DNA from: Micromonospora haikouensis
GTDB lineage: Bacteria > Actinomycetota > Actinomycetes > Mycobacteriales > Micromonosporaceae
Direction of reading: 5' to 3'
DNA length: 64,000 nt
Assembly: GCF_900091595.1 (NCBI RefSeq)
Contig: NZ_FMCW01000023.1
Location: 62,001 to 126,000 of the forward strand
The position numbers were made by a program, and so were the translations under genes. Below are positions 2,123-23,436 of this stretch, piece after piece; position 1 is the first letter of the stretch; each line of letters starts with the position of its first letter. Under the pieces are notes generated by a model, which ran no database searches, was not told the DNA's origin, and was given only the letters and a program-made list of their open reading frames with translations.

Positions 2123-2209
2123 GCGCCGGTGGCGTAAAGTGCCGCTCCGTGGCGCGCCCGGCGACGGAGGCCGGTGTCCGCGACCACCGGCGACGGGGAG
2201 GTCGGACTG

Positions 2210-3097
2210 ATGCGGCGATGGTGGACGGCGGTCGCCGTGTCGGCGGGGGCGGCGCTTGCGCTGGCCGGCTGCGGCACGCCGGCCGGGCTGGACGGTGACC
2301 TCGCCGACGACTGGCGGACGATGGCGGCGCCGACGCAGTTCGTGCCCGCCGCCGGAACATGTCACACCGTCTTCGCCGACGTCGGCTACCTCAGCGGCTA
2401 CAACCCGGTGGACTGCGCGACGTCGCACCGGGTGGAGACCCTGCACGTCGGCACGCTGACCGGCGCCGCCGCCGAGCTGAGCGCGCCACCGGCCGCCGGC
2501 TCGGCCGGGATGAAGGCCGTCCGCGCCGAGTGCGACCGGGAGGTCAACAAGGCCCTCGGGGCCGACTGGCGCGCGGGGCGGCTGTTCCTGTCCCCGGTCT
2601 TCCCGTCCCGGCAGGCCTGGTCGGGCGGGGCCCGCTGGTTCCGCTGCGACGTGAGCGAGGTGGAGAGCGTCGACGACCCCAGCGCCGTGCCCCGCACCGG
2701 CAGCCTCGCCGGCGCGTTGAAGGGCGCCTCGGCGCTGGCCCACCGCTGCTTCAACCCGAAGATCAAGAAGGACGACGTGCAGGAGATGACCCCCGTCGCC
2801 TGCACCAGGAAGCACCGCGTCGAGTTCGTCGGCGTCTACCAGGCCCCCGACATCTCCTTCGCCCAGGTCGACAAGAACCGGATGCGCATCCACAAGGGCT
2901 GCCGGACGCTGATCGCCTCGTACGCGAAGGTGCCGAACAACGGCGACCTGGAGTATCGGGCGGGCACCATCTTCTACCACCCCTTCGAGCAGGAGTGGAA
3001 GGACGGCAACCGGGGCGTGCAGTGCTTCCTCTGGGTCGACCGTGACCTCACCCGATCGGTGAAGGGCATCGGCACCAAGGGCCTGCCGGTGCAGTGA
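2210..3097 (+). CDS. Septum-formation family lipoprotein (tandem paralogue)
   Basis: This 295-residue lipoprotein is clearly a tandem duplicate of its upstream neighbour. It shares the start MRRW, a lipobox LALAGC with C21, the following LDGDLADDW motif, two Cys-x3-His-x2-Glu domains (VDCATSHRVE; VACTRKHRVE) and the C-terminal pattern RAGTIFYHP...GVQCFLW ending KGLPVQ. It is expected on the outer face of the membrane. A GGGGAGGT ribosome site precedes the ATG at 2210. The 87 bp between the copies suggests co-transcription. What the pair binds is not deducible from sequence. Confidence 0.8.
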   Translation: MRRWWTAVAVSAGAALALAGCGTPAGLDGDLADDWRTMAAPTQFVPAAGTCHTVFADVGYLSGYNPVDCATSHRVETLHVGTLTGAAAELSAPPAAGSAGMKAVRAECDREVNKALGADWRAGRLFLSPVFPSRQAWSGGARWFRCDVSEVESVDDPSAVPRTGSLAGALKGASALAHRCFNPKIKKDDVQEMTPVACTRKHRVEFVGVYQAPDISFAQVDKNRMRIHKGCRTLIASYAKVPNNGDLEYRAGTIFYHPFEQEWKDGNRGVQCFLWVDRDLTRSVKGIGTKGLPVQ

Positions 3098-5596: not shown

Positions 5597-6154
5597 TCAC
5601 CGCCCCAGGCCGAAGGGGCTGCCGGCGTGCGGGTCGAGCTTGACCGTCGGCGGGGCCGCCACGTCATACCACTCGGCCTGGCGGATCGCCTTCATCGCCT
5701 CCTTGCGGCCGGCCGGGTCCAGCCGGTCGACGAAGAGCACGCCGTCGAGGTGGTCGGTCTCGTGCTGCACGCAGCGGGCCATCAGGCCCGTGCCGACGAT
5801 CTGGACCGGGTCGCCGTAGCTGTTGAAGCCCTTGGCGACGACGTTCTGCCGGCGCTTGGTGTCGAAGTAGAGCCCGGGGATGGACAGGCAGCCCTCGGGG
5901 CCGTCCTGCTCCTCGGCGTCGGGGAACTCCAGCACCGGGTTGACCAGGTGGCCGAGCACGTCGTCAACGTCGAAGGTGAACACCCGCAGGCCCACTCCGA
6001 GCTGGGGCGCGGCGAGACCCGCGCCGCTCTGCTCACGCATCGTGTCGGTGAGGTCGGCAACGAGCCTGCGCAGCTCGGCGTCGAAGTCGACCACCGGATC
6101 GGCCGGCGTGCGCAACACCGGATCCCCGAACAGACGGATGGGCTGGACGGTCAC
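5597..6154 (-). CDS. def: Peptide deformylase
   Basis: This metalloenzyme removes the formyl group from nascent peptides. The protein has 185 residues. All three family motifs are intact: GAGLAAPQ at 44-51, EGCLS at 87-91 (metal ligand C89), and HETDH at 131-135 with the catalytic glutamate. The active-site Tyr of the more common HEYDH is Thr here, a harmless-looking variation. The GTG start has a GAAGGAG ribosome site. It is first in the def-fmt-rsmB operon, which is logical because Fmt adds the formyl group that Def removes. Confidence 0.95.
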
Positions 6155-6194
6155 GCGGGATGGCTCCTTCGGTCGGGCGGGTCAGGGCCGTACC

Positions 6195-6200
6195 AGTCTA
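6195..6200 (-). promoter_or_regulatory. Possible -10 element upstream of def
   Basis: TAGACT on the minus strand fits TAnnnT and lies about 40 bp upstream of the def start, ahead of the ribosome site. No good -35 is visible, so this is weak. Confidence 0.3.
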
Positions 6201-6242
6201 CGGACTGCCCGGGGGCCTCCCCCCGCCCGCGACCGGGACGGG

Positions 6243-7226
6243 TCAGGCGCCGGGGGCCGGATCGCCGGCGAGCACGGCGTCGCCGGCCAGCAGGCAGTGC
6301 GCCGGCAGCGGCAGGGTGATGCCGTGGGCGGCCTCCCAGTCGTACACGGTGCCGGGGCGGACCTGGGCGGCGAAGTAGTCCGCCGCGCTCGTCCCGCCCA
6401 CCACCGGCTCGTCGACCTCGGCGACCAGCCGGGCGGGCACCAGCGGGAAGCCGTTGCGGATGGCCGCGCTGAGCCGCCGGTGGCCGTCGACGACGAAGAA
6501 GTATTCCCCGGTGAAGCCGATGGTCAGGGGCTCCAGCGCCTCGTCGCCGGCGGCGGCGACCTCGTCGACGAAGCCCGCGTCCCACAGGCCGCGCAGGGCA
6601 CCGACGTCCTCGGTCGGGTAGACCCGGGTCGGGTCGAGCAGCAGCAGCGGCGGGGCGTCGCGCAGCACGTCCGCGCCGAGCCGCCCCTCGTAGACGTCGA
6701 TGATGTGGCCGATCACCTGCTCCGGGTTGGCCCGGGTGGAGTCGCAGATCAGGTCGTAGTTGCGCAGCCGGGCCTTGTCGACGCCGTAGCGGACGATGAA
6801 CCGGCCCCGCTCGCTCTCGCTGCGCTCGCGCAGCTTGGCCCTGGCCTCCTCCAGCGAGGTGTAGCTCTCGGCCGGGCCGGAGGGGCGGGCCAGGACCCGG
6901 CGGGCCGCCTCGGTCGGCTCGGTGATCATGTGCACCTTGAGCGCGTCGGTGAAGAAGTGCCAGGCGAGCCGGGAGTCCATGACCAGGCTCTCGCCGGAGG
7001 CCGCGATGTCCTGCTGGAGCTGGTCGACGTAGCCGTCGACGGCCTGGTCCAGCTCGGCGTGCAGGTTGAGCTGGAGCGCGGTCATCTGCCGCTCCTGCGC
7101 CATCTGGCGGTAGAGGTCGCCGACGCTGACCCGGCGCAGCCCGAGCCGCTTGGCGATCTCGACGGACACGGTGCTCTTGCCGCTGCCGAGGTCACCGTTG
7201 AAGACGATCGATTGACGAACGGTCAC
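6243..7226 (-). CDS. Cytidylate-kinase-like domain fused to a ParB-like domain
   Basis: A 327-residue two-domain protein. Residues 1-180 resemble archaeal-type CMP/dCMP kinases. They show a P-loop GDLGSGKST at 11-19, then RRVSVGDLYRQMAQER, a DSRLAW segment near 84, a lid-like ESERGRF segment and YDLICDSTRANPEQV near 157-171. Residues 195-270 resemble a ParB/sulfiredoxin-type fold: LDPTRVYPTEDVG, then PLTIG and VVDGHRRLSAA at 246-255. The family-level reading is nucleotide phosphoryl transfer plus a DGHRR domain that in relatives binds or hydrolyses nucleotides. The combined function is unknown to me. I chose GTG at 7226 because a GGTGGA site precedes it and the P-loop strand begins at once; an upstream start at 7286 is possible. 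It stands between priA and def. Confidence 0.75.
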   Translation of the reverse strand: MTVRQSIVFNGDLGSGKSTVSVEIAKRLGLRRVSVGDLYRQMAQERQMTALQLNLHAELDQAVDGYVDQLQQDIAASGESLVMDSRLAWHFFTDALKVHMITEPTEAARRVLARPSGPAESYTSLEEARAKLRERSESERGRFIVRYGVDKARLRNYDLICDSTRANPEQVIGHIIDVYEGRLGADVLRDAPPLLLLDPTRVYPTEDVGALRGLWDAGFVDEVAAAGDEALEPLTIGFTGEYFFVVDGHRRLSAAIRNGFPLVPARLVAEVDEPVVGGTSAADYFAAQVRPGTVYDWEAAHGITLPLPAHCLLAGDAVLAGDPAPGA

Positions 7227-7363
7227 GACTGGTCCACCCCTGATCACCGGCTGACTGGCGTCGTCGACGTGGCGTCGTACCGACACGCCGTCGTGCGCCC
7301 GGGCATGACGGGCGATGCTATCACGCAGCGGCGACCACGGATCGTGACCGCCACTCCGATCGA

Positions 7364-9268
7364 CTAGAACAGCGAAAGAGGGTCGATCTGGACGCGGACC
7401 GGATCGGCGGCCTTACGGAGAGTGCGCACCCCGGCGGCGGCGTGCAGCGCCTCGGCGAGGGCCGCCGCCCGGGCCCGGGGCACCCGGACGAGCATCCGCT
7501 CCTTCTCGCCGTCGGCGGGGACCGGGCCCAGCACCTCGGCCGCCTCGGGCAGCCGGGCGGCGGCCAGCAGGTCGGCCACCGCGTCGGGCGGGCCGGTGAC
7601 GCTGGCCATCCGCACCGCTGGCGGGAACCCCAGCTCGCGGCGCTCGGCCAGCTCCCGGGCGGCGAACCAGGCGGCGTCCCAGCGCAGCAGCGCCTGCACC
7701 GGCGCGAGGGCGCCGTCGGCGACCACCACCACCCGGCCGCCGGCCGTCGCGGGTCGGGCCAGCGCGGCGGCGGCCAGCCAGCGGCGCAGCGCCTCCTCGC
7801 CGGCCCGCAGGTCGGCCCGGGTCAGCAGGGCCCACGAGTCGAGCAGCAGCACCGCGCCGTAGCCGCCGTCGGCGATCGGCTCGGCCCCCGGGGTGGCCAC
7901 CACGAGGCCCGCGCCGCCGGGCACGGTGGTGAGCACCTCCTCCCGGCCGGAGGTGCGCACCGGCACCCCGGGGAAGGCCCGGCCCAACTCCTCGGCGGTG
8001 CGCCGGGCGCCGGTGACGGCCGCGCGCAGCCGCCGCCCGCCGCACTCCGGGCAGGCGTACGCGGCGGAGATCCGGCCGCACCAGCGGCAGGCCGGTGTCC
8101 CCCGCGCCGACGGCAGGGCGAGCGGGCCGGCGCAGTGCGGGCAGCGGGCCGGGGTGCGGCAGTCCGCGCAGGAGATCGACGGCAGGTAGCCGCGGCGGGG
8201 CACCTGGACCAGCACCGGGGCGTCGGCGCCGAGCGCGTCCCGGGCGGCGGCCCAGGCCAGGCTGGGCAGCCGGGCCGTCGCCGCGCCGGGATCGCGGGCC
8301 AGCTGCGGGTCGTCCCCGGTCGGCGCGACGGCGGGGGTACGCGCCCGCACGGTGGCCCGGTCGGCGACCACCTCCCGCGCCCAGCCGGTCTCCACCAGCA
8401 GCTGCGCCTCGGCGCTGCGGGCGTACCCGCCGACCAGGGCGGCCGCGTCGGCGAGCCGGGCGCGGGTGAGCAGCACGTCGCGGGCGTGCGGGTAGGGGGC
8501 GCGCGGCTCGGCGTGCAGGTCGTCGCCGTCGTCGACGATGGCGACCAGGCCGAGCCGGGCCACCGGGGCGAACATCGCCGCGCGGGTGCCGATGACGACC
8601 GGCACGTCCCCGCGCCGGGCGGCCAGGAACGCGCGGTAGCGGCGGGCGGGGCCGAGGGCGGCGGAGAGGCTGACGTGCCGCCCGGGGCCGAGGGCGGCGG
8701 TCAGCGCCGCGTCGAGGCGGTCGAGGTCCCGGGCGTCGGGCACGACCAGCACCGCGCCCCGCCCGCCGGCCACCGTGGCGGCGACCGCCTCGGCGTACCG
8801 GGCGGGCCAGTCCTCCCCCGGCAGCGCGGACCAGACCGCCCGGGCGGGGCGGCCCTCGGTCAGCGCCCGCAGGAACGCCGGCCCGGCCGGGTACGCCCGC
8901 CAGCCGGCCGCCTCCGGCGGGGCCAGGGGCGCGGGCGGCTCCGGCGGGACGTGCGGCTCCTTCTCCACCCGGGCGTGCCGGGGCGGCACGGCCAGCCGGA
9001 GCACGTCGGCGAGGCTGCCGGCGTACCGGTCGGCGACGGCCCGGGCCAGCCGGACGACCTCGTCGGCGAGCACGGGCTCGGGCGAGACGAGCCGGTCGAG
9101 GTAGGCGAGCCTGCCGGTGTGCCCCGAGTCGTCGGCCCGTTCCAGCAGCCAGCCGTCCACGAGCTGGCCGGCGAAGCGCACCTTCACCCGGGTGCCGGGG
9201 ACGGCCTCGTCGGCCAGCTCGGCGGGGACCAGGTAGTCGAAGGGGCGGTCGAGGTGGGCCAGGGGCAC
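7364..9268 (-). CDS. priA: Replication restart protein PriA, helicase motifs degenerate
   Basis: A 634-residue PriA/primosomal protein N' homologue, which acts at stalled replication forks. The N-terminal DNA-binding domain begins PLAHLDRPFDYLVP. The zinc-binding region near residues 364-409 keeps eight cysteines in C-x2-C pairs (CADC, CPHC, CRWC, CPEC). The helicase core has lost its Walker A: where GxTGSGKT is expected the sequence reads LPGEDWPARYAEAV, and the DEEH box reads DDGDDLH. This is the known actinobacterial situation, so a structural rather than unwinding role is likely. The start is uncertain. GTG 9268 is used, but the frame stays open upstream (ARVCVDVPLAHL) and homologues often include those residues. 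Confidence 0.85.
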   Translation of the reverse strand: MPLAHLDRPFDYLVPAELADEAVPGTRVKVRFAGQLVDGWLLERADDSGHTGRLAYLDRLVSPEPVLADEVVRLARAVADRYAGSLADVLRLAVPPRHARVEKEPHVPPEPPAPLAPPEAAGWRAYPAGPAFLRALTEGRPARAVWSALPGEDWPARYAEAVAATVAGGRGAVLVVPDARDLDRLDAALTAALGPGRHVSLSAALGPARRYRAFLAARRGDVPVVIGTRAAMFAPVARLGLVAIVDDGDDLHAEPRAPYPHARDVLLTRARLADAAALVGGYARSAEAQLLVETGWAREVVADRATVRARTPAVAPTGDDPQLARDPGAATARLPSLAWAAARDALGADAPVLVQVPRRGYLPSISCADCRTPARCPHCAGPLALPSARGTPACRWCGRISAAYACPECGGRRLRAAVTGARRTAEELGRAFPGVPVRTSGREEVLTTVPGGAGLVVATPGAEPIADGGYGAVLLLDSWALLTRADLRAGEEALRRWLAAAALARPATAGGRVVVVADGALAPVQALLRWDAAWFAARELAERRELGFPPAVRMASVTGPPDAVADLLAAARLPEAAEVLGPVPADGEKERMLVRVPRARAAALAEALHAAAGVRTLRKAADPVRVQIDPLSLF

Positions 9269-10601: not shown

Positions 10602-11819
10602 CTACCCCGTCACTCCTCGGGAAGATGGCCAGCGCGCCACGACGAGGTCCCAGACGGCGTCGGCCAGCTCCTCCTTGGACTGCTCGGCCATGGGGTGCAC
10701 CGAGCCGTCCGCGCCGATGACGGTCGCCGCGTTGGTCTCGGCACCGAAGACCTTGTCCGGCCCGACCTCGTTGATGACGATGAGGTCGGCCCGTTTGCGG
10801 GCGAGCTTGGCCCGGCCGTTGGCCTCGGCGTCGCCCGTCTCCGCGGCGAACACCACCAGCACCTGCCCGGGCCGGCGTTGCCGGCCCAGCTCGGCGGCGA
10901 TGTCCGGGTTGGTGACGAGGTCGATCGTAGGTGCCCCGGCTGCTGTTTTCTTGATTTTGGCCGACGTGTAGGTGGCGGGGCGGAAATCCGCGGGCGCGGC
11001 GGCCATCACCACGGCGTCCGCGCCGGCCGCCGCACGGAGCGTGGCCTCGCGCAGCTCCTCGGTGGTGCCGACCCGCACCAGGTCCACGCCGGCCGGGTCG
11101 GCGAGCGCCACGTTGGCGGCGACGAGGGTGACCCGGGCGCCCCGGGCGACCGCCGACCGGGCGAAGGCGTAACCCTGCTTGCCGGAGGAGCGGTTGCCGA
11201 GGAACCGCACCGGGTCGAGCGGCTCGCGGGTGCCGCCCGCGGTCACCACCACGTGCCGGCCGGCGAGGTCGGCCGGGGCGTGCGGGCCGCGGGCCAGGGT
11301 CCGCCGGGCGACGGCGAAGATCTCCGCCGGGTCGGGCAGCCGGCCCTTGCCCGTGTCGGCGCCGGTGAGCCGGCCGACGGCGGGCTCGACGACGCGGACG
11401 CCCCGGGAGCGCAGCGTGGCGACGTTGGCCACGGTGGCGGGATGCTCCCACATCTCGGTGTGCATCGCCGGGGCGAGCAGCACCGGGCACCGGGCGGTGA
11501 GCAGGGTGTTGGTGAGCAGGTCGTCGGCGAGGCCGTGGGCCGCCCTGGCGAGCAGGTCGGCCGTGGCCGGGGCGACCACCACCAGGTCGGCCCGCTGGCC
11601 GAGCCGGACGTGCGGGACCTCGTGCACGTCGGCCCAGACGTCGTCGGCGACCGGCTGGCCGGACAGGGCGGCCCAGGTCGGCGCCCCGACGAAGCGGAGC
11701 GCCGACGCGGTGGGCACCACGCGGACCCGGTGGCCCGACTCGGTGAAGAGCCGCAGCAGCTCACACGCCTTGTAGGCGGCGATGCCGCCGCCGACCCCGA
11801 GGACGATCTCGGCGGACAT
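10602..11819 (-). CDS. coaBC: Bifunctional CoaBC: PPC decarboxylase / PPC synthetase
   Basis: A 405-residue fusion for two coenzyme A steps. The N-terminal flavoprotein (CoaC) starts IVLGVGGGIAAYKA and has the His of VPHVRLGQ, the APATADLLA loop, and the PAMHTEMW substrate-recognition segment. The C-terminal CoaB half starts near residue 186 with VTAGGTREPLDPVRFL, followed by NRSSGKQG and the SAKIKKTAAG lysine motif that binds CTP and phosphopantothenate. It condenses cysteine with phosphopantothenate, then decarboxylates the product. It lies 15 bp after rpoZ in the gmk-rpoZ-coaBC-metK order typical of actinobacteria. Confidence 0.96.
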   Translation of the reverse strand: MSAEIVLGVGGGIAAYKACELLRLFTESGHRVRVVPTASALRFVGAPTWAALSGQPVADDVWADVHEVPHVRLGQRADLVVVAPATADLLARAAHGLADDLLTNTLLTARCPVLLAPAMHTEMWEHPATVANVATLRSRGVRVVEPAVGRLTGADTGKGRLPDPAEIFAVARRTLARGPHAPADLAGRHVVVTAGGTREPLDPVRFLGNRSSGKQGYAFARSAVARGARVTLVAANVALADPAGVDLVRVGTTEELREATLRAAAGADAVVMAAAPADFRPATYTSAKIKKTAAGAPTIDLVTNPDIAAELGRQRRPGQVLVVFAAETGDAEANGRAKLARKRADLIVINEVGPDKVFGAETNAATVIGADGSVHPMAEQSKEELADAVWDLVVARWPSSRGVTG

Positions 11820-11834
11820 CGGCGTGCGGCGCGG

Positions 11835-12098
11835 TTACGGCTGGTCGGTCGGCTCGGCGGTGAGCAGGCCCGCGTTGATCTCGCGCATGGCGATGGAGAG
11901 GGGCTTCTCCTGGGGGGTGGTCTCCACGAGCGGGCCGACGTACTCCAGCAGGCCCTCGCCGAGCTGGCTGTAGTAGGCGTTGACCTGGCGGGCGCGCTTG
12001 GCAGCGAAGATCACCAGGGCGTACTTCGACGTCGTCTTCTCGAGCAGCTCGTCGATCGGCGGGTTGGTGATGCCCTCGGGGTTGGCGATGGATCCCAC
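11835..12098 (-). CDS. rpoZ: RNA polymerase omega subunit
   Basis: An 87-residue omega subunit that helps fold and hold the beta-prime subunit. The signature is the N-terminal block [22 protein letters not shown] followed by [12 protein letters not shown], with a short variable tail. I chose the GTG at 12098 because AGAGGT precedes it at good distance; the open frame continues upstream without homology. It sits between the guanylate-kinase-like gene and coaBC, the conserved actinobacterial position. Confidence 0.93.
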
Positions 12099-12177
12099 GA
12101 AATAACCTCTGCGTCTGTCGTCACCGCGCGGACGCGGTTCGTCTGGCCCCACCACGCGGACGCGGTTGGTGGGTCAC

Positions 12178-12711
12178 TCAGCCGCTCCGCCGCGGTCGGG
12201 CCGGAGCCAGATGGGAAGAACCGAACAAGCCTACCAGCTCATCCACCGCCCGCTCGGTGTGGTCGTGCGCCACGACGTGCGCGTCGCCGGCCGGGTCGAC
12301 CGCATCCGGCCGCCAGCCGGGCGGGGCGAGCAGGACCAGCCGGGCGTCGGGGTGCGCCGCGCGGACCGCGAGCGCACCGGGCAGGTCGAGCGGGAGGAGC
12401 ACCGGATGGCCGGCGGCGAGCCGCCCGGCCACCGGCGGGGCCGGGGTGCCGCGGGCGTACGGCCCGATGCGGGCCCACTCCAGCAACAGACCGGCGGCGA
12501 TCAGCCGGTCGAACGCCGCCGGGGCGAGGAAGACCCGGTCGACGCCGTCCACCTCGCCCGCCCGGCGGGGCCGGGTGGTGGCCGGCACCGGGATCCAGAC
12601 CGACGGAGAACGCGCCCGGAACGGCTCGACGACACTGCCCACGCCGGCCCCGGAGGGACCGGTCAGGACGGTGAGCCGAGCCGCCGGGCGCGCCTCGTCA
12701 TCCGTGCTCAC
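12178..12711 (-). CDS. Guanylate-kinase-like protein, P-loop and lid degenerate
   Basis: A 177-residue homologue in the canonical gmk position before rpoZ. GMP kinases carry GPSGVGKST; here the loop reads GPSGAGVGSVV, so the catalytic lysine is a valine. The codon is clearly GTG and no frameshift is evident. The GMP-binding TTRPRR block and E of AGEVDG are kept, but the usual GxHYxF is GVDRVF and YGTP has become YARGTP. The C-terminal lid with its paired arginines is missing: after LVLLAPPGW comes a short divergent tail, so the protein is shorter than the usual 190-210. It probably cannot phosphorylate GMP. It may be decaying or may have become a nucleotide-binding regulator, and a functional gmk should exist elsewhere. 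Confidence 0.75.
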   Translation of the reverse strand: MSTDDEARPAARLTVLTGPSGAGVGSVVEPFRARSPSVWIPVPATTRPRRAGEVDGVDRVFLAPAAFDRLIAAGLLLEWARIGPYARGTPAPPVAGRLAAGHPVLLPLDLPGALAVRAAHPDARLVLLAPPGWRPDAVDPAGDAHVVAHDHTERAVDELVGLFGSSHLAPARPRRSG

Positions 12712-12760: not shown

Positions 12761-13078
12761 TCAGTTGGCGGCGAACTCGCCGAGCAGGGCCTTGCGCTGC
12801 TGCTCGCCCAGACCACGCAGGCGACGGCTGTCGGCGATCTTGAGCTTCTCCATGATCTGGGTCGCCCGGATCTTGCCGATGCCCGGCATCGCCTGCAGGA
12901 CGGCCGAGACCTTCAGCTTGCCGACGACGTCGTCGCCCTCGGCCCGCTCCAGGACCGCGGCGAGGGTGGTCTTGCCCTGCTTGAGCTGCTCCTTCAGCTC
13001 AGCGCGGGCCTTGCGGATCTCCGCAGCCTTCTCGAGCGCAGCTGCGCGCTGCTCGGGGGTAAGTGACGGGAGGGGCAC
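12761..13078 (-). CDS. mihF: Actinobacterial integration host factor MihF
   Basis: A 105-residue nucleoid-associated protein, not related to classical IHF alpha/beta. The N-terminal long helix TPEQRAAALEKAAEIRKAR is rich in Ala and charged residues. The DNA-binding helix-two-turn-helix core is VSAVLQAMPGIGKIRATQIM, followed by ISDSRRLRGLG-like ADSRRLRGLG near residues 83-92. The GTG start has a GAGGAG site. The gene lies 49 bp upstream of the gmk-like gene and 180 bp downstream of pyrF. That gap (13079-13257) probably holds its promoter, although no confident hexamer pair was found. Confidence 0.93.
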   Translation of the reverse strand: MPLPSLTPEQRAAALEKAAEIRKARAELKEQLKQGKTTLAAVLERAEGDDVVGKLKVSAVLQAMPGIGKIRATQIMEKLKIADSRRLRGLGEQQRKALLGEFAAN

Positions 13079-13257: not shown

Positions 13258-14094
13258 TCAGGAGCCGCCGAGGGCCGCCTTGCAGTCGGCCAGGGCCCGC
13301 TGTGCGGCGGCCCGCAGGGCGGCCACGTCGGGCCCGGCGTGCAGCACCTCGCGGGAGTACGACGGCAGGACCCACGGCAGGCTCGCGCCGAACACGGTCC
13401 GTAGGTCCGCGGCCGTGGCGCCCTGCGCGCCGAGCCCCGGGGCGAGCAGCGGGCCGCGCACCGCCGACAGGTCGTGGCCGGTGTCGCCGATGGTCGCCCC
13501 GACCACCAGACCGAAGCTGCCCAGCGTCTGCGCACCCCGGTTGAGCTGGGCAATCTCGTCGATGACCGCCTGCGCGACGGTGCGCCCGTCGGCGCCCACG
13601 GCGCGCTGCACGGCGGCCCCCTCGGGGTTGGAGGTGAGCGCCAGGACGAACACCCCGCCGCCGTGCGTGGCGGCGAGCTCGAACATCGGGGCCAGCGACA
13701 TTACTCCCAGGTAGGGGCTCGCGGTGACCGCGTCGACATACAGCGGGCTGGATGGATCAAGGTACGCGGAAGCGTACGCGGCGACGGTGGAGCCGATGTC
13801 TCCGCGCTTGACGTCGAGCAGAACGAGCGAGCCAGAATCCCGCAACTGTCGGATAGTTGACTCTAGCACCGCCACGCCCCGCGCTCCGAAGCGCTCGAAG
13901 AACGCCGACTGGGGCTTGACCACCGCAACCTGGTCGCCTAGGGCCTCCACCACGGTGCGGCAGAACCGCTCCAGACCGTCGACGTCGTCCGTCAGGCCCC
14001 AGCGGGTCAGCAGCCCCGGGTGCGGGTCGATGCCCACGCAGAGCGGACCGCGCTGCGCCATCGCCCGGTGCAACCGGTCACCGAAGGTCTCCAT
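13258..14094 (-). CDS. pyrF: Orotidine 5'-phosphate decarboxylase, subfamily 2
   Basis: This enzyme decarboxylates OMP to UMP, the last step of de novo pyrimidine synthesis. The 278-residue length fits the longer subfamily 2. The catalytic motif LLDVKRGDIGST is at 92-103 with K96 flanked by aspartates. Other signatures are CVGIDPHPGLL at 19-29, VKPQSAFFERFG, and the phosphate loop APGLGAQGA near the C-terminus. The ATG at 14094 has a GGAAGAGG ribosome site; the longer upstream frame (to 14148) is Arg-rich and unlikely. It is separated from bioA by 108 bp. Confidence 0.96.
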   Translation of the reverse strand: METFGDRLHRAMAQRGPLCVGIDPHPGLLTRWGLTDDVDGLERFCRTVVEALGDQVAVVKPQSAFFERFGARGVAVLESTIRQLRDSGSLVLLDVKRGDIGSTVAAYASAYLDPSSPLYVDAVTASPYLGVMSLAPMFELAATHGGGVFVLALTSNPEGAAVQRAVGADGRTVAQAVIDEIAQLNRGAQTLGSFGLVVGATIGDTGHDLSAVRGPLLAPGLGAQGATAADLRTVFGASLPWVLPSYSREVLHAGPDVAALRAAAQRALADCKAALGGS

Positions 14095-14202
14095 CCGCGC
14101 CTCTTCCTCTCGACTCCTCCGGGCGCCCGGCGTCCGCCGGCGCGCCACGCCTGTCCGATCACGGTCATGCGGCCACCCCGCGCGGCCGCCCGGGAACGCC
14201 GG

Positions 14203-15477
14203 TCAGCCGGCCGCCACGGCGGCGGCCATCCCGGCGGCGATCCGGGCGACGTCCGCGTCGTCGGCGACGTACGGCGGCATGGCGTAGACCAGGTCGCGGA
14301 ACGGCCGCAGCCACACCCCCCGGTCCACCGCCGCGGCGGTCGCCGCCGCCAGGTCCACCTCGTGGTCGAGCTGGACCACCCCGATCGCGCCCAGCACGCG
14401 GACGTCCGCCACCCCGGGGGCGCCCCGCAGCGGCTCCAGGCCGGCGCGCAGGGCCGCGCCCACCCTCGACACCTCGGCCGCCCAGTCTCCGGCCCGCAGC
14501 AGGCCGATGGAGGCGTTCGCGACCGCACAGGCGAGCGGGTTGGCCATGAACGTGGGCCCGTGCGCGAGCACCCCGTCGCGGGAGATGCCCGCCGCCACGT
14601 CCGCCGTGCACAGCGCGGCGGCCAGCGTCAGGTAGCCGCCGGTGAGCGCCTTGCCGACGCAGAGGACGTCGGGGCTCACCCCGGCGTGCTCGGCGGCGAA
14701 CATCGTGCCGGTGCGGCCGAAGCCGGTGGCGATCTCGTCGAAGACCAGCAGCACCCCGTGGGCGCGGGTCACCTCGCGCAGCACCCGCAGGTAGTGCGGG
14801 TGGTGGAAGCGCATCCCGCCCGCGCCCTGGACCACCGGCTCCACGATCACGGCGGCCAGCTCGTGCGCGTGCCGCGCCACCGCGTCGGCCAGCGCCGCGC
14901 AGTACGCGGGGTCGGGCGGGGCGTCGAAGCCGGCCGGCGGCACGGGCGCGAAGACCTGCCGGGGCAGCACGTCGCCCCACAGGTGGTGCATGCCGCCCTC
15001 GGGGTCGCACACGCTCATCGGGTGGAAGGTGTCGCCGTGGTAGCCGCCCCGCCAGGTGCCCAGCCGCCGGCGCTCCGGCCGCCCGAGCGCCCGCTGGTAC
15101 TGCAGGCACATCTTCACCGCCACCTCGACGCTCACCGAGCCCGAGTCGCACAGGAAGACCCGCTCCAGCCCCTCCGGGGCCAGCTCGACCAGCGTCTGCG
15201 CCAGGCGCACGGCCGGCTCGTGGGTGAGCCCGCCGAACATCACGTGGCTCATCCGGCCGAGCTGGTCGACGACCGCCGCGTCCAGCACCGGGTGCCGGTA
15301 GCCGTGGATCGCCGCCCACCACGACGACATCCCGTCGACCAGTTCCCGCCCGTCGGCCAGCCGCAGCCGCACCCCCCGCGCGCCCGCCACCACGTACGGG
15401 GGCGTCGCGGGGGGCAGCGGCGCGTACGGGTGCCACACGTGCTCCCGGTCGGCGGCGAGGATCTCCTCCGGCGTCAC
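14203..15477 (-). CDS. bioA: Adenosylmethionine-8-amino-7-oxononanoate aminotransferase
   Basis: A 424-residue class III PLP aminotransferase of biotin synthesis; it uses SAM as amino donor to make 7,8-diaminopelargonate. The identity rests on the N-terminal HVWHPYAP motif typical of Bio[28 protein letters not shown], the cofactor aspartate in [12 protein letters not shown] (D247), and the Schiff-base lysine K276 in [11 protein letters not shown]. No other biotin gene is nearby; it is embedded in the pyrimidine operon between pyrD (49 bp upstream) and pyrF. The GTG start follows GGAGGGGG. The placement suggests co-transcription with UMP genes. Confidence 0.95.
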
Positions 15478-15526
15478 CCGCGCCCCCTCCGGCCCCCGGC
15501 GGGACCCGCTGTGGCCGGCTCCCCGG

Positions 15527-16573
15527 TCACGACCGCCCGCCCGACGGCACCGGCGCGGGCAGCGGGCGGGCGGCCCGGGCGGCGGCGCGGACGAGGCCGG
15601 GGCCCCGGTAGATGAAGCCGGTGTAGAGCTGCACCAGGGCCGCCCCGGCGTCGAACATGCGCGCGGCGTCGTCGGGGTCGACGATGCCGCCCACGCCGAT
15701 CACCGGCAGCCGCCCGCCGGTCTCCCGGTGGACGAACGACACCACCGCGCGGGCGCGCGCGGCCAGCGGACGCCCCGACAGGCCGCCCGCCTGCCCGCCG
15801 CGCTCCCGGTCGGCGGGGGCGAGCCCGTCGCGGGCCAGGGTCGTGTTGGTGGCGATCACCCCGGCCGCCCCCCGGTCGAGGCAGACCTCCAGCAGCTCGG
15901 CGATCGCCGGCTCGGTCAGGTCCGGGGCGATCTTCACCAGCACCGGCTTCTCCCCCACCAGGGCCGCCAGCAGCGCGTCCAGGTGGGCGCGGTCCTGCAA
16001 CGAGCGCAGGCCCGGGGTGTTGGGCGAGGAGACGTTCACGGCGAAGTAGTCGCCGTGGTCGCGCAGCGCCCGGTAGGAGGCGAGGTAGTCCTCCACGGCC
16101 TCGTCCAGCGGGGTCACCTTGGACTTGCCGAGCGAGATGCCCAGCGGCGCGCCGACCGGGCGGGGCAGCGCCGCCAGCCGGTCCGCCAGGGCCCGCGCCC
16201 CGGCGTTGTTGAAGCCCATCCGGTTGACCACGGCCTCGCTGTCGCGCAGCCGGAACAGCCGGGGCCGGGGGTTGCCCGGCTGGGCGTGCGCGGTGACCGT
16301 GCCGACCTCGACGAAGCCGAAGCCCAGCGCCGGCCACGCCGGCAGCGCCGCGCCGTCCTTGTCCATCCCGGCGGCCAGCCCCACCGGGTTCGGGAAGTCC
16401 ACCCCGAACACCGTCCGGGGCGCCCGCACGGCGTAGCGGGCCCGCAGCGCGGCGAGCGCCACCGGCGAGCGCGACACGGCGGCCAGCCGGCGCAGCGTCC
16501 ACTCGTGGGCGGCCTCGGCGTCGCCGCCGCCGAGGCGGAACAGGCCGGGCCGCACCACCCGCTCGAAGATCAC
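15527..16573 (-). CDS. pyrD: Dihydroorotate dehydrogenase (quinone), class 2
   Basis: A membrane-associated flavoenzyme that oxidises dihydroorotate to orotate with quinone. The protein has 348 residues. The class 2 features are the N-terminal amphipathic segment (VVRPGLFRL...AHEWTLR), [13 protein letters not shown] near 62-74, [20 protein letters not shown], and the catalytic-serine loop [11 protein letters not shown] near 178-188 followed by KIAPDL. The FMN phosphate loop is [11 protein letters not shown]. The GTG start has a GGGGAG site 25 bp after carB. It supplies orotate to a PyrE not found in this window. Confidence 0.96.
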
Positions 16574-16598
16574 CGGGCGCTCCCCGGTGTCCCGGCGG

Positions 16599-19968
<3,370 letters not shown>

Positions 19969-19976
<8 letters not shown>

Positions 19977-21180
19977 GCGCGCGCCCCTCGCTGTTGCTCC
20001 GGCCCTCGCTGGGCCGCTGGTCGGGGGCACGGCCCTCGATCAGCTCGGCGAATCGGTCGAACAGGTAGTCCGCGTCGTGCGGGCCGGCCGCCGCCTCCGG
20101 GTGGTACTGGACGGTGAAGGCGGGCACGTCGAGCGCCCGCAGCCCCTCGACCACGTTGTCGTTGAGGCAGACGTGCGACACCTCGACGCCGCCGAACTCG
20201 GTGTCGATCACCTGGTCGGGCACGACCGCGCCCTGCCCGGCGCCGGGCTCCTGTTCGCGGCCCGGCCAGGCGACCGCGAAGCCGTGGTTGTGGCTGGTCA
20301 CCTCGACCTTGCCGGTGGCCCGGTCGAGCACCGGCTGGTTGATGCCCCGGTGGCCGTAGCCGAGCTTGTAGGTGCCGAAGCCCAGCGCCCGGCCGAGGAT
20401 CTGGCTGCCGAAGCAGATGCCGAACAGCGGGATCCGCCGGGTCAGCACCTCCCGGGCCAGCCCCACCGGGCCGTCGGCGGTCGCCGGGTCGCCCGGACCG
20501 GGCGAGAAGAAGACGGCGTCCGCGCCGGTGGCGAGCAGGTCGTCGATGCTCGACCCGGCGGGCAGCACGTGGGTGGTGACGCCGCGCGCGGCGAGCCGGC
20601 GCGGCACGTTGCGCTTGATGCCCAGGTCCAGGGCGGCCACCGTGAACCGGTGCGTGCCCTCGGCCTCGACGACGTACGGCTGCGCGGTGCTCACCTCGGC
20701 GGAGAGGTCCGCGCCGACCATCTGCGGCGACTGGCGGACCCGGGCCAGCAGGGCGCGCGGGTCGTCGTCGACGCTGGAGATGCCGACCCGCATCGCGCCG
20801 CGCTCGCGCAGGTGCCGGGTCAGCGCCCGGGTGTCCACGCCGCTGATGCCGACCACTCCCTCGGCGGCGAGCCGGTCGGCCAGCGTGCCGGTGGACCGCC
20901 AGTTCGAGGGGACCCGGGCCGGGTCGCGCACCACGTAGCCGGCGACCCAGATCCGGGCGGACTCGTCGTCCTCGGCGTTGACGCCGGTGTTGCCGATGTG
21001 CGGGGCGGTCTGCACCACCACCTGCCGGTGGTAGGACGGGTCGGTCAGGGTCTCCTGGTAGCCGGTCATGCCGGTGTTGAAGACCGCCTCGCCGAACGTC
21101 TCGCCGACGCTGCCGTACGCCTCGCCGTGGAACGTACGCCCGTCCTCCAGGACCAGGATCGCGCTCCTGCGCTTCTCCAT
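19969..21180 (-). CDS. carA: Carbamoyl-phosphate synthase small subunit
   Basis: A 403-residue glutamine amidotransferase subunit that feeds ammonia to CarB. The N-terminal CPSase domain has [11 protein letters not shown] at 33-43. The class I GATase domain has the nucleophile C256 in [11 protein letters not shown] and H360/E362 in YHPEAAAG. A short Pro/Gln-rich insertion (residues about 306-323) follows HNHGFAVA, and the protein ends in an extra Ser/Gly/Arg tail with a small repeat ([10 protein letters not shown]) that overlaps the carB start. The ATG is two bases from the pyrC stop. Confidence 0.96.
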
Positions 21181-21181
21181 A

Positions 21182-22513
21182 TTAGTTAACAGCCTTTCCG
21201 TCCAGGACCGTCGGCTCGCCGCGCAGGAAGGTCGCCACGATGCGACCCGGCAGCGTCATGCGGGCGTACGGGGTGTTGCGACTGCGGCTGGCCAGCTCCG
21301 CGGGCTCGATCACCCGGCGGGCCGCCGGGTCGACCAGGGTCAGGTTGGCCGGCACGCCGGGGGCCGGGTCGACGCCGTGGCCGTCGAGCCCGGCGATGCG
21401 GGCCGGGGCGCGCGACATGCGCTCGGCGATCAGGTCCCACTGCGGGCCGAGCACGTCCAGCGCGATCGACAGCGCCGTCTCCAGGCCGAGCATGCCCGGC
21501 CGGGCGTACGCCCACTCGCACTCCTTGTCCTCCACGGCGTGCGGGGCGTGATCGGTGGCGATGACGTCGATCACGCCCTCGGCCAGCGCGGCGCGCAGCG
21601 CGGCGATGTCGGTGGCCGTGCGCAGCGGCGGGTTGACCTTGAACACGGGGTCGTAGGCTCCGGCGGGGCTCCAGTTGTTCGCGAGTGCGGGGCTCGCAAG
21701 CTCACTCCTCCCGCTCACGACCGCGTCCGTCAGCAGCAGGTGGTGCGGGGTCACCTCGGCGGTGACGCGTACCCCCCGGGCCTTGGCCTGGCGCAGCACC
21801 TCGACGCTGCCGGCGGTGGAGACGTGGCAGACGTGCAGGCGGCTGCCGACGTGCTCGGCGAGCAGCACGTCCCGGGCGATGATCGCCTCCTCGGCGACCG
21901 CCGGCCAGCCGGTCAGCCCGAGCCGGGTGGACACCTCGCCCTCGTGCATCTGCGCGCCCTCGGTGAGCCGGGGCTCCTCGGCGTGCTGGGCGATGATCCC
22001 GTCGAACGCCTTGACGTACTCCAGCGCCCGGCGCATCAGCTTCGGGTCGGCGACGCAGTGCCCGTCGTCGGAGAAGATCCGCACCCGGGCCGCCGAATCG
22101 GCCATCGCGCCCAGCTCGGCCAGGCGCTCGCCGGCCAGGCCGACGGTGACCGCGCCGATCGGCTGCACGTCGACCAGCCCGGCCTCCCGGCCGAGCCGCC
22201 AGACCTGCTCGACCACGCCGGCGGTGTCGGCGACCGGGGAGGTGTTCGCCATCGCGCAGACCGCCGTGTAGCCGCCGAGCGCCGCCGCCCGGGAGCCGGA
22301 CTCCACGGTCTCGGCGTCCTCGCGGCCCGGCTCGCGCAGGTGGGTGTGCAGGTCGACCAGGCCGGGCAGGGCGACCAGCCCGGTGCCGTCGACCTGCGTG
22401 GCGTCGGGCGCGGTGAGGCCGGCGCCGGTCTCGGCGACGACGCCGTCGCGGATCAGCAGGTCCGTCGGCGCGGCGCCGACGACGCTCACGTTGGTGATCA
22501 GGTACGCGGTCAC
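21182..22513 (-). CDS. pyrC: Dihydroorotase
   Basis: A 443-residue class I metal-dependent dihydroorotase that cyclises carbamoyl aspartate. Metal and substrate motifs are [10 protein letters not shown] at 54-63, the HAEE His near 178, [10 protein letters not shown] at 226-235, and ATDHAPH in the C-terminal third with the catalytic aspartate. Between LLLTDAVV (about 259-266) and [12 protein letters not shown] (about 287) there is an insertion of about 20 residues, [20 protein letters not shown], absent from the family consensus; the DNA of the insertion forms a repeat-like hairpin (see the repeat entry). The GTG start overlaps pyrB by four bases. The insertion keeps the frame, so the enzyme is probably active. 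Confidence 0.94.
21676..21710. repeat. Short palindromic repeat inserted in frame in pyrC
   Basis: This stretch, coding for [13 protein letters not shown] in pyrC, contains inverted GCGAG/CTCGC arms around TGCGGGG, and has different base use from its surroundings. From memory it resembles a dispersed element of Micromonosporaceae genomes. Only one copy is in this window, so the repeat status is inferred from the alignment gap in dihydroorotases. Confidence 0.55.
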
Positions 22514-23436
22514 AGGTTGTTCCCCCCGAGCAGCAGGTAGAGGACGGCCATCCGCACGGAGACCCCGTTGGCGACCTGTTCGACGATGGTGGAGCGGGGC
22601 GAGTCGGCGACCTCGGGCGTGATCTCCATGCCCCGGTTCATCGGCCCGGGGTGCATGACGATCGCGTGCTCCGGCAACCGGCGCATCCGGGGCGCGTCGA
22701 GCCCGTAGCGGCGGGCGTACTCGCGGGCCGAGGGGAAGTAGGAGTCGGTCATCCGCTCCCGCTGCACCCGCAGCATCATCACCACGTCCACGTTCGGCAG
22801 CACGGCGTCGAGGTCGTAGGAGACGTCGATGCCGGGCGCGAGGGCCTGCGCGATGTCGACGGGGATCAGCGTGGGCGGCCCGACCAGGGTGACCTTCGCC
22901 CCGAGGGTGGACAGCAGCAGCACGTTGGAGCGGGCGACCCGGGAGTGCAGCACGTCCCCGACGACCGCGACGTGCAGGCCGGCGAGCCGCCCCAGCCGGG
23001 CCCGCATCGTGTACGCGTCCAGCAACGCCTGGGTGGGGTGCTCGTGGGTGCCGTCGCCGGCGTTGACCACCGACCCGTCGACCCAGTCGGCCAGCCGGTG
23101 CGGGGCGCCCGAGGCGGGGTGCCGGACGACGACCGCGTCGGCCCCCATCGCCTGGAGGGTGAGCGCGGTGTCCTTCAGGCTCTCGCCCTTGGTCACGCTG
23201 GAGCCCTTGGCCGAGAAGTTGATCACGTCGGCGCTGAGCCGCTTCGCCGCCGCCTCGAACGAGATCCGGGTGCGGGTGGAGTCCTCGTAGAAGAGGTTCA
23301 CCACGGTCCGCCCGCGCAGCGCGGGCAGCTTCTTGACCTCGCGGCCGGCGACCGTGGCCATCTCGGCGGCGGTGTCCAGGATCAGGGTGGCGGTGGCGGC
23401 GTCCAGGTCGGCGCCGGAGAGCAGGTGGCGGATCAT
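22510..23436 (-). CDS. pyrB: Aspartate carbamoyltransferase catalytic subunit
   Basis: A 308-residue ATCase catalytic chain that joins carbamoyl phosphate and aspartate. The carbamoyl-phosphate loop is [12 protein letters not shown] near 56-67 (the STRTR box). [14 protein letters not shown] follows, then the [11 protein letters not shown] motif near 134-144, and [11 protein letters not shown] near the C-terminus. No pyrI regulatory-subunit gene is present, as is usual outside enterobacteria. The ATG overlaps the pyrR stop by four bases (ATGA) and the stop overlaps the pyrC start, giving a tightly coupled pyrR-pyrB-pyrC unit. Confidence 0.97.

Follow-up and report, generated by a model that had tools for sequence, protein, structure and literature searches.

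A CMP-kinase-like protein with a ParB-like C-terminal domain as a candidate replacement for guanylate kinase in Micromonospora and related genera

The window, meaning the whole 64,000-nucleotide stretch of DNA analysed here, carries at 6243..7226 on its reverse strand a gene in which a kinase domain is joined to a ParB-like module (window features named below lie on the same strand unless marked otherwise). The gene starts with GTG at 7226, ends with the stop codon at 6243-6245, encodes 327 aa with no internal stops, and is the sole match in a search of the window's genome. Residues 1-180 (6687..7226) form an archaeal-type (d)CMP-kinase-like domain, assigned from Pfam and NCBIfam matches and invariant residues, with the Walker A motif (P-loop) GDLGSGKST at residues 11-19 (7170..7196; alignment A1) and the motif DSRLAWHF at residues 84-91. 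Residues 190-275 (6402..6659) are assigned to a predicted ParB/sulfiredoxin-fold domain, based on structure matches and a weak ParB profile match. Within it, the GxxR motif (P motif, Box II) reads GHRR at residues 248-251 (6474..6485; alignment A3), and a DW...H motif follows past the ParB core at residues 296-301 (6324..6341; 8-row alignment). An earlier note on this DNA had described this pairing in a single gene, with a P-loop at exactly these residues and VVDGHRRL near 246-252, which is found at 245-252. Its reading of the fold and architecture, a CMP-kinase-like domain followed by a ParB fold, is almost certainly correct. The frame error that it had raised as an alternative can be set aside, since the fusion is kept in 80 further Micromonosporaceae loci and dN/dS is below 1 in both halves (0.17 for the kinase domain, 0.31 for residues 190-275).

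Residues 1-180 match AAA_18 (E 9.9e-17), Cytidylate_kin2 (2.5e-12), and Cytidylate_kin (4.3e-9) in Pfam, which agrees with the archaeal-type CMP-kinase-like identity proposed earlier. The match to NCBIfam TIGR02173 spans residues 7-176 and, at 83.1 bits, falls below the cut-off of 102.1. Residues G11 to K17 and T19 are invariant in alignment A1 (23 rows, 22 of them distinct, as L088 and L093 are identical in sequence and both are present in A1 and A2). In the AlphaFold model, residues 1-190 resemble shikimate, CMP, and adenylate kinases (Z up to 8.8). Both the Walker A motif and the kinase fold of the P-loop NMP kinase superfamily are thus present, as judged by Pfam matches over cut-off and by the model. 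The guanylate kinase family (TIGR03263/PF00625) is absent among the 11 Pfam matches and the best 25 of 27 NCBIfam matches of the window protein.

The gene order in the window is pyrB pyrC carA carB pyrD bioA pyrF mihF gmk rpoZ coaBC metK priA, then the kinase, then def fmt. The position of the kinase gene between priA and def, also reported in the earlier note, is seen in the sequence; the names carA, rpoZ, coaBC, metK, priA, def, and fmt are presumptive identifications from the sequences. The genes pyrF, bioA, pyrD, carB, carA, pyrC, and pyrB (13258..23436) lie upstream in the same gene string and, other than carA, are named by NCBIfam. The gmk slot is flanked upstream by mihF (actinobacterial IHF, 12761..13078, NF041260) and downstream by the presumed rpoZ and coaBC (10602..12155); the rpoZ reading frame has no NCBIfam match at E<=1e-30. 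Elsewhere, the kinase gene lies between bioA and pyrF (L097), between efp, named by NCBIfam, and aro genes (L100), or among aro genes (L099), the aro genes in the last two loci being presumptive identifications. Outside the priA-def clade (L096-L112), and among the matches listed, only these three loci share the string aro-efp-pyr-gmk-coaBC; the other neighbour matches listed for L096-L112 are those of the close relatives L096/L098/L112 and of the pairs L101/L104, L103/L105, and L107/L111. At the near end of the window, two adjacent lipoprotein-like genes (1172-2122 and 2174-3097, forward strand) match the same target stretch in L094 and L095, an apparent tandem duplication.

The gmk slot itself is occupied by a degenerate guanylate kinase gene (12178..12711), recognized by TIGR03263 and by alignment. 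Its Walker A motif reads GPSGAGVGS, so the lysine is lost, being replaced by valine, and the LID is deleted. Against TIGR03263 it reaches 92.9 bits, with a cut-off of 160.45, and covers profile positions 2-123 of 180 only. The same decay is seen in other kinase carriers: the LID, called deleted where fewer than 10 of its 20 residues are kept, is deleted in 81 of 82 distinct Gmk homologues from kinase carriers and degenerate in the other (G085), and the Walker A lysine is replaced in 71, kept in nine, and not covered in two. All 30 comparison Gmks, of which eight are from kinase-bearing genomes and one (G577) is of another family, keep both the LID and the lysine. The alignment of 85 rows was drawn from the window and 65 contig loci (66 rows), from L097, and from 18 fetched regions, with three repeats reducing it to 82; L210, another paralogue, and L211, the split gene of the kinase-negative genome G057, were left out. 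Of the 80 contig loci, the 15 without a visible gmk each have less than 10 kb of sequence.

Comparison of 150 Micromonosporaceae genomes identified the kinase in 53 (56 raw matches, with G027, which has a 44-aa remnant, and G053 and G061, at E about 9e-4, counted as negative). Forty-three of these have no gmk over cut-off and ten do; in the 43, there are 36 sub-cut-off gmk matches and seven genomes with no match, all of genus g44. Among the 97 genomes without the kinase, gmk is over cut-off in 95, the exceptions being G057, in which gmk is split over two frames, and G063, which is 77% complete and has no match. An intact gmk is therefore lacking in 43/53 kinase carriers against 2/97 others (Fisher p 2e-25, relatedness ignored), bearing in mind that the gmk search scored part of the first-look candidates, so that a strongly diverged Gmk might escape notice. 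Individual genera show the contrast too. In g23, the kinase is accompanied by a sub-cut-off gmk in G023, and gmk is intact in G054 and G074, which lack the kinase; in g11 (15 genomes), both the kinase and a sub-cut-off gmk are found only in G085.

A second comparison comes from the order of G484, which is distant in the phylum. Here, 15 of 119 genomes carry the kinase and gmk is found in none of the 15; of the 104 without it, 102 have gmk (101 over cut-off, with G1227 just under at 159.8 bits), and the two that lack it are 78% and 72% complete. The contrast, 15/15 against 2/104 lacking, gives a Fisher p of 3e-17 and, counted by genus, gmk is missing in 12/12 against 1/46 (p 1.5e-11), relatedness being ignored in both. 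It is repeated inside each of families f71, f73, and f93. Canonical cmk, on the other hand, is over cut-off in 78 of the 80 genomes tested, including all 24 tested of the 43 Micromonosporaceae in which the kinase goes with a dead or absent gmk, and 14 of the 15 distant kinase carriers. There is therefore no CMP kinase gap to fill; since cmk is present and intact gmk is gone in most kinase carriers, it is GMP kinase that is missing.

The ten Micromonosporaceae genomes that have both genes include G055 and G075, with a nearly full-length kinase. Stop codons are reported inside the match in four of the 53 kinase genes (G115, G136, G146, and G019). In three of these (L109 of G019, L104 of G136, and L105 of G146) gmk is intact, which fits the C-terminal erosion seen at these loci. 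In G027, also with an intact gmk, the 44-aa remnant at L111 4986-5117 (-) indicates that the kinase gene seems losable too. Locus L104 has in addition a guanylate-kinase-like gene (5849-6484, -) overlapping the start of the kinase gene and, beside it, a gene for a protein with a uracil-DNA-glycosylase-type domain (6596-8014, +); further on, another gene weakly matches 2OG-Fe(II) oxygenase.

Wider surveys, in which the top few first-look candidates were scored, found matches in 63 of 397 genomes of the order (62 of the window's genus, and G085), in three of 296 of the class (all of the window's genus), and in nine of 396 of the phylum, of which four are plain archaeal-type kinases rather than the fusion. 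Relatives covering 80-93% of the protein are present on plasmids of Rhodococcus (35-38% identity) and of Parabacteroides distasonis (32%), and there are further relatives in other lineages of the same phylum, including families f71, f73, and f93. In a tree of the kinase domain rooted on the four plain archaeal-type kinases (L163 and the partial L121 left out), the 30 rows that possess a C-terminal region group together (support 98/86), adjoined by 11 single-domain rows with the same D[SA]R[LM][AG]W[HFY]F motif. One change accounts for the C-terminal region, which fits a single gain; for GxxR, counted over the rows with that region, five changes are needed. Long branches were flagged by the tree tool, which leaves the position of the plasmid rows uncertain. 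All 11 loci of the single-domain relatives (families f73 and f93) have the order mihF-kinase-rpoZ-coaBC; in the window and in L097, gmk stands in this mihF..rpoZ slot. In f71, where the relatives have a C-terminal region, the kinase is found between rpoZ and mihF, inverted, at three loci; the fourth locus, L151, has rpoZ-coaBC on one flank, and mihF gave no match there.

Near mutual exclusion with gmk, decay of Gmk, a position of distant relatives in the gmk slot, and the presence of cmk are thus all observed. It is likely that the gene is a non-orthologous replacement of Gmk, encoding a kinase for GMP and probably for dGMP too, as judged from genome sequences; the genomic link to gmk makes it quite likely that GMP is a physiological substrate of this replacement. 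The catalytic half would belong to TIGR02173, the archaeal-type NMP kinases now labelled (d)CMP kinase, as a divergent branch marked by D[SA]R[LM][AG]W[HFY]F. ATP would bind at the P-loop, the gamma-phosphate would be transferred to GMP, and the resulting GDP would pass to nucleoside diphosphate kinase. The fused ParB/sulfiredoxin-fold domain would most likely be an NTP-binding module that regulates or stabilises the enzyme, for example through GTP or CTP sensing. On the Parabacteroides plasmid, the third gene downstream of the kinase is annotated as a hypoxanthine phosphoribosyltransferase, which is consistent with guanine salvage.

A variant of this explanation is that the enzyme is a broad-specificity NMP kinase, acting on GMP and on CMP or dCMP, in which the GMP activity lets gmk decay. 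Membership of a CMP-kinase-like family together with gmk loss would be accounted for, and the ten genomes with both the kinase and an intact gmk would represent a redundant stage; however, cmk stays, although its loss might be expected if the CMP activity were good, and this variant is the less probable form. Improbable, in turn, is an accessory (d)CMP kinase in which the ParB-like domain responds to the end product CTP, a role near the one in CTP/CDP metabolism suggested earlier. The closest family is indeed TIGR02173, with the Parabacteroides member over cut-off at 107.9 bits; pyr genes are in the same gene string, with the L097 kinase right beside pyrF; and CTP is bound by some ParB-type domains, according to the available part of PMC12704722. 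Against this, it is gmk that disappears from kinase carriers while cmk is retained, and the CMP/CTP interpretation of the gene is probably wrong.

The degenerate gmk raises another alternative, that its product persists as a subunit and contributes a working GMP-binding half to a complex that includes the fused kinase. Among the 43 kinase genomes without gmk over cut-off, 36 still have the remnant, and its dN/dS is 0.48 (61 sequences), so constraint is relaxed, not absent, and the remnant may retain some role. Constraint is nevertheless weaker than on intact gmk (0.27), and there is no gmk match at all in the seven g44 genomes or in any of the 15 distant kinase genomes, which makes a shared active complex very improbable. 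The gene at 12178-12711 is likely to be a pseudo-guanylate-kinase, for which a new role is possible, with the fused kinase as the probable replacement.

The ParB/sulfiredoxin fold of the C-terminal part is supported by predicted structures. The earlier suggestion of a ParB-like module stood up in structure comparison and not in Pfam: the C-terminal part alone has no Pfam match at E<=1, PF02195 has no match in the window protein at E<=1 and is not among the best 25 of 35 families for 17 members, and PF08857 is marginal (five of 17 rows, 16 distinct, best E 0.063). The full-length AlphaFold model, built with 81 sequences, has a mean pLDDT of 69.0 and a pTM of 0.71 (41.7-53.2 mean pLDDT in the other four models). 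Its residues 192-291 align with Arabidopsis sulfiredoxin 6ky4 over 87 of 89 residues (Z 7.7, rmsd 2.8), sulfiredoxin appearing only at rank 17 of the VIA-align list; no ParB or sulfiredoxin entry is among the 50 Foldseek matches listed for the same model. A model of the C-terminal part only (mean pLDDT 50.6) was used because its matches agree with those of the full-length model; of 34 listed, 32 are named sulfiredoxin, ParB/Spo0J, Noc, KorB, PadC, free serine kinase, or SbnI, and the other two are proteins without a name. All of the C-terminal Z-scores are below 8, a range that the tool calls common, and the models are mediocre. A profile of the C-terminal part searched against 177,635 PDB sequences has two matches at E<=10, both to ParB-type proteins and in register at GxRR, with E-values (0.35 and 1.3) that are singly not significant.

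Conservation points to the same motif. G248 and R251 of GxxR are invariant in 81 rows of close homologues (alignment A3), and D296, W297, and H301 are invariant in the 8-row alignment, which includes Rhodococcus and Parabacteroides. GxxR is the P motif or Box II of the ParB fold, and a change of its R to A abolished NTP binding by the ParB-fold proteins tested, as given in the part of PMC12704722 available. As GxxR is intact in the window protein, binding of CTP or another NTP by its C-terminal domain is possible. The motif is missing in ten of the 30 tree rows with a C-terminal region, f71 and Rhodococcus being among those that have lost it, and by analogy with the R-to-A change in the same source such eroded forms probably bind no NTP. 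Where gmk is dead or missing in the surveyed Micromonosporaceae genomes behind the tree rows (nine rows: window, L094-L100, L112), the C-terminal region is 119-146 aa long and DGHRR is found in eight of nine; where gmk is intact (ten rows: L101-L110), the region is 50-109 aa and DGHRR is found in one of ten. Within Micromonosporaceae, therefore, the ParB-like domain is best preserved in genomes that have no candidate GMP kinase other than this one. The 11 single-domain relatives have no such domain, and it is dispensable for the presumed replacement. Regulation of the kinase by the ParB-like domain may be proposed, with rather less than even confidence. The structure matches of the C-terminal model include SerK (5x0b, Z 5.1) and SbnI (5uje, Z 4.7), but a free serine kinase activity of the domain is most improbable: the domain erodes repeatedly on the tree, and E206, the Glu after a conserved PT and a tentative counterpart of the catalytic Glu30 of SerK (E30A/E30Q mutants of which are named among the matches), varies in the family (TED, TQE, TQG, TRP, TGD, TKA).

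A number of other readings are not supported. Plasmid partition or DNA binding, the latter also suggested in the earlier note, was dropped, as neither an HTH nor another DNA-binding family is among the Pfam matches of the window protein at E<=1. For a phage origin, there was no match in 50,697 phage records, and a scan of viral contigs gave 19 pattern matches, none of which was confirmed as a relative. For an antiviral viperin system, the PADLOC pVip-kinase and VakA models match only the kinase, and no viperin gene was seen beside it among the window reading frames, as judged by eye on their list. A radical SAM gene beside the Parabacteroides kinase matches pVip models at 1.9e-18 and 6.9e-17; it is not taken as a viperin because of its SPASM domain and because, in NCBIfam, it comes closest to TIGR04251 (148 bits, below the cut-off of 400). 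A stress or dormancy island was considered and dropped as a general role: such surroundings are seen on the Rhodococcus plasmids, but none of 13 neighbouring genes tried at L118 has a match in loci L093-L139, other Rhodococcus loci aside.

Among these plasmid copies, L118, L120, and L121 all have genes for a universal stress protein, a dsRBD-fold protein, and an APC permease near the kinase; L118 and L120 also have a Clp N-domain protein and a KUP transporter, and L118 has Hsp20 and LigD. On the Parabacteroides distasonis plasmid (L119, 10615-15622), genes for an AAA_28 protein, a hypothetical protein, the fused kinase, the radical SAM/SPASM protein, a zinc-type dehydrogenase, and the phosphoribosyltransferase form an operon-like run that adjoins glycosyltransferase genes and is possibly a small biosynthetic cassette.

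Plain members of the kinase family also occur in the gmk slot. In G789, G782, and G476 (loci L132-L134, L139), a plain archaeal-type kinase lies between mihF and rpoZ, with an extra gene within this interval in G789; cmk is kept and there is no true gmk (only a 32-bit match in G782). In G577, the plain kinase has none of those neighbours found and gmk is intact. Against TIGR02173, the proteins of L132-L134 reach 123.6 to 156.8 bits and the four plain relatives overall 123.6-157.0 (cut-off 102.1), and single-domain relatives with the WHF motif reach 136.1 (L152) and 128.2 (L161). The gmk-slot kinases of gmk-less bacteria thus include unfused ones with the classic ESRLAGW/EGRLAGW motif. Among 14 control genomes, the gmk model was found in ten and the cmk model in ten, all bacteria; in the four archaeal controls, named by Cytidylate_kin2, neither bacterial gmk nor bacterial cmk was matched. 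For archaea, the GMP kinase reaction is known and the enzyme is not, and AK6-type kinases have been proposed, according to the available part of a comparative study from 2014 (PMC4177761). The present data suggest that TIGR02173 proteins are candidates for GMP kinase activity in archaea. A tentative and somewhat doubtful extension is that this family holds the missing archaeal GMP kinase and that the Micromonosporaceae version is a sole GMP kinase with a ParB-fold domain that tunes it to NTP.

Guanylate kinase is usually considered to be indispensable in bacteria. In Micromonospora and several related genera, Gmk appears to have decayed and the cells appear to depend instead on an enzyme from a different kinase family, which is listed in databases as CMP kinase. 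Automatic annotation of such a genome therefore yields one pseudo-Gmk and one misnamed enzyme. The family offers a concrete candidate for the archaeal GMP kinase, the enzyme described as missing in the accessible text of PMC4177761, and through the fusion a metabolic enzyme in purine synthesis would carry a nucleotide-binding module of the ParB fold.

Neither this fusion nor such a replacement of Gmk was found in open-licence PMC papers, which is weak evidence of absence, and known systems each share a part of it. With the archaeal-type (d)CMP kinases (TIGR02173/PF13189 Cytidylate_kin2), the window protein shares the P-loop kinase family by profile, but it is below cut-off, has DSRLAWHF in place of ESRLAGW/EGRLAGW, has an extra C-terminal domain, and is distributed like a GMP kinase. 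With canonical Gmk (TIGR03263/PF00625), it shares the proposed role, GMP to GDP, and its distant relatives lie in the gmk slot; however, it is not a member of that family, the true homologue in the window being the decayed gene at 12178-12711. Proteins of the ParB/sulfiredoxin fold (PF02195, PF08857; sulfiredoxin, the ParB N-domain, SerK, SbnI) have the fold and the GxxR P motif in common with the C-terminal domain, which, in contrast, has no PF02195 match and no HTH and is fused behind a nucleotide kinase. The viperin-associated kinases of PADLOC, pVip-kinase and VakA, are alike in the kinase domain (5.7e-20 and 7.5e-7), with the match confined to residues 5-180. Also related are the ParB-CTPase fold fusions (PMC12704722, PNAS 2025), in which, from the part of that paper available, the same fold is a module of multidomain proteins and tested members bind CTP, ATP, or GTP; the survey there used PF02195 as query, and the terms 'cytidylate' and 'nucleotide kinase' are absent from its main text as available.
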